Notes under the pieces: generated by a model
The model's input: the letters and a program-made list of their open reading frames with translations, nothing else
What the model was told of the DNA's origin: nothing
The model's database searches: none
Shown: positions 29,046 through 55,114 of the stretch, piece after piece
Position numbering within the stretch: the first letter of the stretch is position 1
How the letters are laid out: the number at the start of each line of letters is the position of its first letter
Position numbers and translations under genes: made by a program
Assembly: GCF_003046625.1 (NCBI RefSeq)
Contig: NZ_QAAD01000006.1
Location: 62,001 to 126,000 of the forward strand
Length of the DNA: 64,000 nucleotides
From: Mangrovibacterium marinum
GTDB taxonomy: Bacteria > Bacteroidota > Bacteroidia > Bacteroidales > Prolixibacteraceae
Reading direction: 5' to 3'

Positions 29046-30137
29046 TTATTCGGCATCCATGATTTCGGTTTGCATACGCACCGAGTCTTCGTGGATTAAC
29101 TGGAAGAGAATTTTCACGAAAACAGGATCCAGCTCCATTTTTTCGCCGGTTGCAACACGTTTGTTCATCAGTTCAGTCCAACGGCTGATTTGCAATGCCG
29201 TAACGTTGTTTTCCTTTTTGTACTGACCAATTTCGCGAACAATATTCATGCGCGACGACAAAATCTCCAACAGCTCGGTGTCCAGCGAATCGATGCGGTT
29301 ACGCAGTACTTCCAGCTGGTTTTCAAATTGTTTATTATCAACCGACACGTTGCGGATTACCAGTTTGTCCAACATTTTGAACAGGTCGGCCGGGGTTAGT
29401 TGTTGTCCGGCATCGCTCAGTGCACATGAGGGATCGCGGTGCGATTCAACCATCAGTCCGTCCATACCCATATCGAATGCTTTTTGAGCAACCTCGAACA
29501 GGTATTCCCGTTTTCCGGCAATGTGGCTGGGGTCGCAGATAACCGGTAAGTTCGGCATTAAACGACGCAGCTCGATGAAGGTTTTCCAGTTGGGGTAGTT
29601 GCGGTATTTGGTTTCGCGGAAAGGAGTGAAACCACGGTGAATACCAACCATGTTTTTAATGCCTGAGCGACTCAAACGCTCGAAAGCTCCCATCCACAGT
29701 TGGACGTCCGGGTTTACCGGGTTTTTAACCATTACGGTAGCGTCGGTTCCTTTCAAAACGTCAGCAATCTCCTGCACCACGAAAGGGCTTGCTGTTGAAC
29801 GCGCACCAATCCAAAGGATGTCTAATCCGGCTTTTAATGCTTCTTCGGTATGTTGAGCGTTTGCGACTTCAGTACCAACGCGTAAGCCGGTTTCCTGTTT
29901 AACCATTTTCAACCACTCCAGGCCAATCGAACCGATTCCTTCGAAGCTACCCGGGCGGGTGCGAGGTTTCCAAACACCACCGCGGTAGCCAAATACGCGG
30001 GGATCTTTAGCCAGCTGACGGGCTGTGTCCATCGCTTGTTCTTCAGTCTCCAGGCTGCAAGGCCCTGCAATTAAGAGCGGGTTGTTTAACTCGGGTAACC
30101 ACTCTTTTATCGGTCTAATGTCTAATTCTGTTGCCAT
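29046..30137 (-). CDS. aroF: bifunctional DAHP synthase / chorismate mutase type II
   Basis: A 363-residue fusion catalysing the first shikimate step (PEP plus erythrose-4-phosphate to DAHP) and the chorismate-to-prephenate branch step. The N-terminal ~255 residues are a type I-beta DAHP synthase: LLIAGPCSLETEEQ near 20, GGVWKPRTRPGSFEG near 53, NMVGIHRGF near 145, and the metal ligand region VICDPSHIAGKR near 180. The C-terminal ~90 residues are an AroQ chorismate mutase (LEVLRNRIDSLDTELLEIL, SRMNIVREIGQYKKEN). In this fusion type the mutase domain commonly also provides feedback control. The gene begins 4 bases after tyrA, so flow from chorismate to prephenate to tyrosine is encoded in one operon under the attenuator upstream. 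Confidence 0.95.
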   Translation of the reverse strand: MATELDIRPIKEWLPELNNPLLIAGPCSLETEEQAMDTARQLAKDPRVFGYRGGVWKPRTRPGSFEGIGSIGLEWLKMVKQETGLRVGTEVANAQHTEEALKAGLDILWIGARSTASPFVVQEIADVLKGTDATVMVKNPVNPDVQLWMGAFERLSRSGIKNMVGIHRGFTPFRETKYRNYPNWKTFIELRRLMPNLPVICDPSHIAGKREYLFEVAQKAFDMGMDGLMVESHRDPSCALSDAGQQLTPADLFKMLDKLVIRNVSVDNKQFENQLEVLRNRIDSLDTELLEILSSRMNIVREIGQYKKENNVTALQISRWTELMNKRVATGEKMELDPVFVKILFQLIHEDSVRMQTEIMDAE

Positions 30138-30141
30138 CTTT

Positions 30142-31035
30142 TTATTTGGTATAAAGTTTAATAATTTTTTCTTCGTTTTTAATTAGTGATGGGTTTGAGC
30201 CATTCAGCACTTCGCGAATTTTTGTCGCATTTTCCATCAGTTCGTACATCTTTTCTTCGTTGTTCAGGATGCTGTCCTTAAACTCGATCAGATGCTTGAT
30301 ATACATATCAAGTGATTCAACAATGTATTGTTTGTTGTCCTGGAAAATAGGTCCCCACATCGAAGGGGTACTTTTGGCCAGGCGAACGGTTGAGTTAAAA
30401 CCACCGCTTGCCAGGTCGAAGATGATGTGGCGGTTTTCTTTGGCCATGGCCGCGTTGGCCAGTGCGTACGCTACAACGTGCGGCAGGTGCGAGATGTAGG
30501 CCGTGCTGTGGTCTTGCTCGTCGGACGACATGTAGGCAATGTTCATGCCCATACACTGGAACATTTTTTCGACCAAAGCCAGGTGTTGCGGCCCGCTTTT
30601 TTCCTGATCGCAGATGATCGTTATTTTTCCTTCGAACAGTCCTTCCAAAGCTGCTGAAGGACCTGAGTTTTCGGTTCCCGACATGGGGTGGGCGGCAATG
30701 TAGTTGCGGCGGTTGGGGTGGTTTTCAATGGCTTCGCAAATGCGCAGCTTGGTTGAGCCCAGGTCGGTAACCGTTGTGCCCGGTTGAATCATATCCAGAA
30801 TTTGGGGCAGCAGCCGGCGGATTTTGTCGACCGGAATGGCAACCACCACCAGGTCGGCTTGCGCAACGGCCTGTTGTAGAGGAAGAACTTCATCGACCAA
30901 ATTGATTTCAAGGGCTTCGGCTGCGTGCTTCTCACTGGCATCAACGCCAATCAGGTGGGTGGCAAAGTGAGCCTTGCGCAAGTCCCTGGCAACCGATCCG
31001 CCGATGAGTCCTAATCCGATAATCGTTACATTCAT
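30142..31035 (-). CDS. tyrA: prephenate dehydrogenase
   Basis: Oxidatively decarboxylates prephenate to 4-hydroxyphenylpyruvate for tyrosine synthesis. The 297-residue product starts with the NAD-binding fold MNVTIIGLGLIGGSVAR. It contains the catalytic-region signatures AAHPMSGTENSGPSAA near 115 and DQDHSTAYISHLPHVVAYAL near 180, with the conserved histidine, and GFNSTVRLAKSTPSMW near 225. There is no ACT domain and no fused chorismate mutase; the mutase is on the next gene. It is the first structural gene after the aromatic leader peptide and terminator, so it is the direct target of that attenuation. Confidence 0.94.
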   Translation of the reverse strand: MNVTIIGLGLIGGSVARDLRKAHFATHLIGVDASEKHAAEALEINLVDEVLPLQQAVAQADLVVVAIPVDKIRRLLPQILDMIQPGTTVTDLGSTKLRICEAIENHPNRRNYIAAHPMSGTENSGPSAALEGLFEGKITIICDQEKSGPQHLALVEKMFQCMGMNIAYMSSDEQDHSTAYISHLPHVVAYALANAAMAKENRHIIFDLASGGFNSTVRLAKSTPSMWGPIFQDNKQYIVESLDMYIKHLIEFKDSILNNEEKMYELMENATKIREVLNGSNPSLIKNEEKIIKLYTK

Positions 31036-31049
31036 GTTTGGTTTATTTC

Positions 31050-31082
31050 AAAAAAAAAGGTCCCGAAAAAATTCGGGACCTT
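31050..31082 (-). terminator. attenuator terminator in the tyrA-aroF leader
   Basis: On the minus strand AAGGTCCCGAA and TTCGGGACCTT form a perfect 11-bp stem with a 4-base loop, followed by nine T. It lies after the leader peptide and 15 bases before the tyrA start codon, so termination here would shut off both genes. Its 5' arm (GGTCCCG, plus-strand 31074-31080) can instead pair with CGGGGTC inside the leader peptide gene (31123-31129), giving a 7-bp antiterminator with two G-U pairs. Confidence 0.88.
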
Positions 31083-31113
31083 CTAGTATTTTTATTTGCT
31101 TTTGACAATACAA

Positions 31114-31182
31114 TTACTGTTCGACCCCGTTTGCTGAAGTGAAGTAATAAAACCAGTAATAAAATGTATTGTTTGAAAGCAT
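31114..31182 (-). CDS. aromatic leader peptide of the tyrA-aroF operon
   Basis: A 22-codon ORF in the transcribed leader: ATG at 31182, TAA at 31114-31116. It starts MLSNNT, then has eight aromatic codons in a row (FYYWFYYF), then TSANGVEQ and stop. A run of Phe, Tyr and Trp codons directly before a terminator and aromatic biosynthesis genes is the hallmark of ribosome-mediated attenuation, as in the E. coli pheA and trp leaders. Its last codons (AAC GGG GTC) contain the proposed antiterminator strand. When aromatic tRNAs are charged, the ribosome reaches the stop codon and covers that strand, so the terminator forms. When the ribosome stalls in the aromatic run, the strand is free. Translation of the peptide is not shown, but the fit is unlikely to be chance. 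Confidence 0.85.
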   Translation of the reverse strand: MLSNNTFYYWFYYFTSANGVEQ

Positions 31183-31204
31183 TTGTTTCTGTCTAATTTG
31201 TTGA

Positions 31205-31233
31205 CAAAGATAGAGATTTATTTTAAAATCAAA
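31205..31233 (-). promoter_or_regulatory. promoter of the leader-tyrA-aroF transcript
   Basis: On the minus strand TTTG (31230-31233) and TATCTTTG (31205-31212) match -33 and -7 of the Bacteroidota consensus with 17 bases between, at the short end of the accepted range. Transcription would start near 31198, about 16 bases before the leader peptide start. Confidence 0.65.
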
Positions 31234-54941: not shown

Positions 54942-55051
54942 CTTGTTTAAATACGGTTAAAATCGGCCTGCTTTGTAAGCGGGTCAATGATTAAATGTTT
55001 AATTATTTGTTGTGGATGAGTGGATTGAAAGGAAAGCCAAAAGGTTAAAGC

Positions 55052-55104
55052 GATTGCTTTAGCATTTTTTTCTGTGGTTGCAATCAATCTCAAATTTGTC
55101 CACA
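55052..55104 (-). ncRNA. candidate SAM-II-type riboswitch upstream of metK
   Basis: On the minus strand the leader can form an H-type pseudoknot. P1 is TGTGG (55100-55104) with CCACA (55073-55077). P2 is GATTGC (55080-55085) with GCAATC (55052-55057). The A-rich joining loop ends in TGCTAAA (55058-55064), the most conserved SAM-II stretch, and TTGCAA stands before the P1 3' strand as in SAM-II. It lies at the very 5' end of the predicted transcript, 110 bases before the metK start. No terminator follows it, so control would be translational or by another route. Confidence 0.62.
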
Positions 55105-55114
55105 ATTACGGCTG

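Follow-up and report, generated by a model that had tools for sequence, protein, structure and literature searches.

Does a leader peptide control the transcription of tyrA in Bacteroidota, and which amino acids would it sense? The question is raised by a locus of Mangrovibacterium marinum (Prolixibacteraceae) that lies in a stretch of 64,000 nucleotides of its 4.6 Mb genome (hereafter the window). On the minus strand of the window, promoter-like boxes are followed by a leader ORF, a terminator, tyrA and a DAHP synthase-chorismate mutase gene (Table 1). A first-pass annotation, made from the letters alone, had read this arrangement as ribosome-mediated attenuation, and the elements that it named (a promoter, a 22-codon ORF with FYYWFYYF, an 11-bp terminator with nine T and a CGGGGTC arm) are present as described. 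The short ORF thus carries a cluster of codons for the product amino acids, an intrinsic terminator stands between this ORF and the first gene, and the downstream genes make the amino acids that would be sensed. From the analyses below we conclude that tyrA and the DAHP synthase-chorismate mutase gene are very probably controlled by a ribosome-mediated transcription attenuator of the leader-peptide type.

Table 1. Features of the tyrA leader and its target genes in the window (positions of the window).
Feature	Position	Strand	Basis
-33 element TTTG of a putative promoter	31230..31233	-	sequence match to the Bacteroidota consensus
-7 element TATCTTTG	31205..31212	-	TAnnTTTG in 115/122 relatives
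Leader ORF MLSNNTFYYWFYYFTSANGVEQ, 22 aa + stop	31114..31182	-	read from sequence; family comparison
Eight control codons FYYWFYYF (codons 7-14)	31141..31164	-	codon counts; ribosome-mask folding
Protector helix, 5' strand ACAATACA, over Asn-Asn-Thr codons	31165..31172	-	covariation; fold
Protector helix, 3' strand TGTATTGT, right behind stop codon	31105..31112	-	covariation; fold
Antiterminator 5' arm CGGGGTC, inside ORF	31123..31129	-	covariation; fold
Antiterminator 3' arm GGTCCCG, also terminator 5' arm	31074..31080	-	covariation
Antiterminator hairpin, inner part (AGTA with TACT in the window; the helix is extended in many relatives)	31085..31118	-	fold; covariation
Intrinsic terminator hairpin	31056..31083	-	sequence; fold; covariation
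Run of nine T	31050..31058	-	sequence; last two stem pairs use its T
tyrA, prephenate dehydrogenase	30142..31035	-	homology
DAHP synthase-chorismate mutase fusion (aroF/aroG-like)	29046..30137	-	4 nt after tyrA

Conservation of the leader in Prolixibacteraceae

We compared the 5' regions of tyrA across the family. A tyrA match was found in 125 of 140 Prolixibacteraceae genomes, and 124 of the 5' regions were used. G085, with a C-terminal piece only, was left out, as were five weak second hits; G119 and G055 are represented by their N-terminal pieces and not by their C-terminal ones. In the test suggested by the first-pass annotation, an aromatic leader ORF (at least 5 of 8 residues aromatic) together with a terminator was present in 123 of the 124 regions, which come from 23 genera, and the terminator mostly lay about 30 nt past the leader stop codon. 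The remaining locus, G013, begins inside the leader at a contig end; by eye, the rest is present there, namely the aromatic run, CGGGATC and the terminator. At a level of at least 6 aromatic residues in 8 plus a terminator, 117 of 124 real 450-nt upstream stretches scored, versus 1 of 992 dinucleotide shuffles. For the counts on 122 leaders given below, G013 (cut) and G134, whose aromatic run is broken up (MKPFFYRSSYYYVPYSGAA), were set aside.

The two promoter-like boxes of the window are separated by 17 nt, and TTTG-N17-TATCTTTG fits the Bacteroidota promoter consensus. In 115 of 122 family members TAnnTTTG stood at most 70 nt ahead of the leader ATG, versus 104 of 2440 mononucleotide shuffles, and it occurred between the terminator and tyrA in 0 of 123; a TTG/TTTC-like -33 element accompanied the -7 box in only 64 of those 115 leaders. 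Judged from the position of these boxes, the transcript would start near 31198-31201, which leaves some 16-19 nt ahead of the leader ORF.

A metalloprotease-like gene on the same strand (its metalloprotease match is under the curated cut-off) ends 135 nt upstream of the leader, so that the terminator might belong to that gene and the leader ORF be incidental. However, a relative of the metalloprotease-like gene was found in 70 of the 124 upstream stretches (these were of at most 1500 nt, some of them short), whereas leader and terminator were found in 123. The promoter box, moreover, precedes the leader and never follows the terminator, and covariation links the terminator arm to the ORF (see below). 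We therefore consider it extremely unlikely that the terminator serves the upstream gene, and treat it as part of a leader that belongs to tyrA.

Translation of the aromatic run

Of the 934 run codons in the 122 leaders, 915 encode Phe, Tyr or Trp (377 TTY, 454 TAY and 84 TGG, with 19 others), and TTA, TTG, TAA and TAG are all absent. Since U-rich RNA free of coding constraint would be expected to use TTR and TAR, the codon counts point to coding selection, and on their evidence the run is maintained by selection on translation.

The first-pass annotation had suggested that the run senses all three aromatic amino acids at once; the leaders of the family agree with this for Phe and Tyr, and only in part for Trp. 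Every one of the 122 leaders has Phe as well as Tyr; Phe appears by the third codon of the run in 121, and so does Tyr in 121. There is no Trp in 38 of the 122, mostly in genus g6 (where 6 of 34 leaders have it) and also in g4, g5, g15, g19 and g22. Within the window's genus, three of four leaders have Trp and the fourth carries Cys in its place. Because Phe and Tyr are in every leader and Trp is not, we take Phe and Tyr as the residues that would be sensed and Trp as something added in many lineages.

The peptide is otherwise variable. The run is 6 to 9 codons long, with the order and number of Phe and Tyr interchanging among leaders, and the ORF spans 15 to 24 amino acids, counted from the nearest ATG, with variable ends. 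In one leader (L071 of G056) the run contains an additional base, and what follows is read in another frame; the run is aromatic nonetheless and the antiterminator strand is kept.

Selection on the run might also be expected if the ORF encoded a functional small protein, with the RNA structures being secondary. Such a protein would, however, have neither a fixed length nor fixed ends, and the conserved residues near its C terminus follow the antiterminator strand, which genus g9 retains past an earlier stop codon; this explanation has hardly any probability. A further alternative comes from TnaC, where a nascent peptide senses a free metabolite: the run is strongly conserved and hydrophobic, and an aromatic nascent peptide could arrest the ribosome on a free metabolite rather than through codon starvation. 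Yet Phe and Tyr swap in order and number and the length of the run changes, the residues behind it vary or, in g9 (early stop) and G056 (frameshift), are lost, and the lasting features are the Phe and Tyr codons as such and the RNA helices. Peptide-mediated arrest is thus very improbable, and we favour a leader in which the supply of charged tRNA is read through the aromatic codons.

Competing helices and the position of the ribosome

The terminator stem of the window comprises 11 bp (AAGGTCCCGAA/TTCGGGACCTT) closed by a TTTT loop, and CGGGGTC in the ORF can form seven pairs, two of them G.U, with GGTCCCG in its 5' arm. We analysed covariation in an alignment of 78 of the 123 leaders, from which near-identical ones and G134 had been removed. 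In the outer helix of the antiterminator (CGGGRTC with GGTCYCG) 97.1% of cells were paired, with two-sided changes in 5 of 7 pairs; the inner helix was paired in only 80.1%. A protector helix, formed by AACAATA before the run and TATTGTT after the stop codon, was paired in 89.3% of cells, again with two-sided changes in 5 of 7 pairs, and the terminator in 86.2%, with such changes in 8 of 11 pairs. Sliding the partner strand by 1 to 3 columns lowered the percentage paired and the covariation score of all three helices. For each helix, the cells paired, the cells with two-sided changes and the covariation score exceeded all 500 column shuffles, a control that can be inflated by the relatedness of the leaders. 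The number of pairs with two-sided changes (reached by 161, 82 and 82 of 500 shuffles for antiterminator, protector and terminator, respectively) and that of further pair types (68, 12 and 101 of 500) were not clearly above column shuffles.

The family alignment thus shows covariation in all three helices, which, as their sequences have strands in common, are mutually exclusive; in particular, the antiterminator excludes the terminator through the arm that they share and that covaries with both partners. RNAalifold on the whole alignment predicted the terminator alone, a result that is expected if the three helices exclude each other.

To relate these structures to translation, leaders were folded to the end of the terminator 5' arm and the nucleotides under the ribosome were masked, on the assumption that a ribosome whose A site holds codon k covers 3k-18 to 3k+10. 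With the ribosome at any of the eight positions that begin with the first codon of the run, between 109 and 121 of 121 leaders were allowed the antiterminator; the number was 63 at position +8 (the ninth), 3 at +9 (the tenth) and zero beyond. The fold of one leader (G101) contained no antiterminator. With the ribosome at the stop codon the antiterminator was present in 0 of 121 leaders when pairing with the antiterminator arm only was counted, and in a looser count, which accepts any partner of the terminator arm, at least 5 pairs were present there in 71 of 122. In the window, the antiterminator was allowed wherever the ribosome stood between codon 2 and codon 14, with which the run ends, and was no longer allowed with the ribosome at codon 15 or later. 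The sharpness of this loss is in part a product of the footprint that was assumed; what carries information is the distance from the run to the arm, which in 111 of 121 leaders measures 10 to 14 nt. The first-pass annotation's expectation of two alternative structures was thus borne out: the alternatives covary, and the antiterminator is allowed on or before the run and lost beyond it.

In full-length equilibrium folds of the window's leader, the terminator was favoured over the antiterminator at every ribosome position tried, and the switch must therefore act during transcription, with the antiterminator as a kinetic trap. Terminator and antiterminator have similar energies across the 122 leaders (medians -16.7 and -15.6 kcal/mol). 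In the folding model, before the terminator 3' arm is made, the structure depends on the position of the ribosome.

These results are consistent with the following mechanism. When charged tRNA-Phe or tRNA-Tyr is short, the ribosome would stall within the eight-codon aromatic run, where it would cover the protector strand ahead of the run and leave CGGGGTC free. The free strand would pair with GGTCCCG as it emerges from a polymerase that is coupled to the ribosome, the terminator would be blocked and tyrA would be transcribed in the cell. Under good supply the ribosome would pass the run and cover CGGGGTC, so that the terminator could form. If no ribosome were present, the protector helix (ACAATACA with TGTATTGT) would be expected to favour termination. 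This protector step is less certain, because a ribosome just short of the run (positions -4 to -1) likewise left the antiterminator allowed in 104 to 112 of 121 leaders, and because 47 of 121 leaders folded with no ribosome still formed it.

We subjected known leaders to the same computation. For pheL and trpL of E. coli K-12 a ribosome on the control codons permitted the antiterminator and one at the end of the ORF did not, which is the behaviour expected of them and, for pheL, the same as that of the tyrA leader; for hisL, which our simple method handled poorly, the expected behaviour was not clear. In pheL and trpL, however, the whole antiterminator 5' arm lies downstream of the ORF, which contains 0 of 9 and 0 of 5 of its pairs, respectively, whereas in the window all 7 of 7 pairs are inside. 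The position of this arm within the coding region, already pointed out in the first-pass annotation, is a family trait: the arm is wholly inside the ORF in 115 of 121 leaders, partly inside in 3 and outside in 3. The last three make up genus g9, in which the stop codon comes earlier and the arm is retained behind it. We propose that, with the arm inside the ORF, the structure would be switched by the ribosome itself as soon as it leaves the run, while the stop codon is still ahead of it.

Relation to other leaders and distribution in Bacteroidia

Searches of the tyrA leader against Rfam gave no family at threshold. A T-box or another riboswitch was rejected as the identity of the leader on this ground, the T-box model not being among the matches. 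Elsewhere in the window, a SAM-II riboswitch (SAM-II long loop) was matched on the minus strand at 55049-55109, with 60.1 bits. The Phe_leader family (RF01859) gave the window 29 bits (E 0.0077), under its gathering score of 55; conversely, our covariance model of the tyrA leader, R1, scored E. coli pheL at 30.3 bits (E 0.0097), and of 54 sources (the window and 53 controls) it matched only the window and pheL. The locus indeed resembles E. coli pheL-pheA in its run of aromatic codons, terminator, alternative antiterminator and downstream gene of the aromatic pathway. It differs in that Phe is the sole aromatic residue of pheL, and in its target, tyrA with the DAHP synthase-chorismate mutase gene. 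Bacteroid-trp (RF01692), a predicted cis-regulatory Trp leader of the same phylum with a gathering score of 49, did not match the tyrA leader even at E values up to 10.

Other amino acid operons of these genomes also have leaders. In the window's genome, a His leader (MTFNNGHHGHHHFFLLQGRP) with a terminator precedes hisG (L223, G000:C2), and a Trp leader (MTTIWWWRNYFSQYRGEA) with a 15-bp terminator precedes trpE (L235, G000:C9). His leaders were found in 8 of 11 hisG rows (shuffles 0 of 330) and Trp leaders in 9 of 11 trpE rows (shuffles 1 of 330). The Trp leader of the window's genome scored 29.6 bits with Bacteroid-trp, under the gathering score, and the simple folding method gave no sensible antiterminator for it. 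In three cases (L232, L234 and L239) a tandem pair of Trp-rich leader ORFs stands before trpE, with a terminator after each.

R1 matched 52 of 393 genomes of the order, 47 of them outside the family. All of the best 25 of 49 R1 matches outside the family had an aromatic-rich leader ORF (25 of 25), five of these ORFs (L144, L147, L151, L154 and L162) being found only in an all-frame look with 60 nt more. The next ORF was readable in 24 of these best 25 matches, and was pheA in 21, an aminotransferase gene in 2 and a DAHP synthase gene in 1. R1 has low sensitivity beyond the family, where it matches 47 of 388 genomes from the other families of the order, and a direct look before pheA finds leaders far more often. 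Such leaders preceded pheA in 6 of 7 rows of the order outside the family, the miss having 9 nt of upstream sequence, and in 18 of 22 of the other orders of Bacteroidia (22 of 24 same-class pheA genomes were examined; G634 and G638 were left out). Of 600 shuffles made from 20 other-order pheA regions, 8 passed the threshold applied here and 1 passed a level of 5 aromatic residues in 8, which all 17 class-level leaders looked at reached. Among Prolixibacteraceae, a leader was found before pheA in 2 of 19 rows (G124 clear, G034 weak), and in the window's genus in 0 of 4, one with only 82 nt upstream; pheA of this genus seems not to be under an aromatic leader. Outside the class, no leader was found at 28 pheA loci, which come from the 30 best-scoring pheA matches and are not a random draw.

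An antiterminator could be drawn in 17 of 17 class-level leaders, and only 6 of the 17 beat 95% of shuffles, which makes this structure suggestive only. By eye, the antiterminator strand of several class-level pheA leaders (L242-L261) reads Arg-Asp or Arg-Gly, versus Gly-Val or Gly-Ile in tyrA leaders; this difference in frame is a sign of selection on the RNA.

Leader-peptide attenuation is a classical mechanism, and the mechanism proposed here is a known one; the leader family itself is apparently undescribed. In the searchable literature, covered by titles and the beginnings of abstracts, we found no description of a tyrA leader in Bacteroidota; older comparative work may list some, and a comparative study of attenuation by Lopatovskaya et al. 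from 2010 may contain earlier predictions. What varies from the classical scheme is the mixed Phe/Tyr run, the target gene pair and, as a modest anatomical twist, the antiterminator arm inside the ORF. The phylum makes little use of Shine-Dalgarno initiation, and attenuation by leader peptides is thinly documented in it: the searchable literature offers a single Rfam family and passing remarks in two papers on transcriptomes. One of these papers reports strong clues to leader-peptide attenuation before amino acid operons of Flavobacterium psychrophilum, and describes a structured element 5' of pheA that is kept in other genera of Flavobacteriaceae and has no Rfam hits (PMC9723704). As far as that description allows a comparison, this element differs from the tyrA leader in order and first gene, and it possibly belongs to the same class as the class-level pheA leaders. 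The other notes ORFs in 5' UTRs of B. thetaiotaomicron that are reminiscent of leader peptides (PMC7366714).

We think it somewhat more probable than its converse that leaders sharing a common plan, with a Phe and Tyr run, an antiterminator arm within the final leader codons and a terminator, are an ancestral regulator of pheA, tyrA and DAHP synthase genes throughout Bacteroidia and that, together with the his and trp leaders found in the same genomes, they reveal coupling of ribosome and polymerase at leaders in this phylum. The covarying, family-wide tyrA leader offers a clean model for genome annotation and for a new RNA family, and a way to test translational control of transcription elongation in Bacteroidota.
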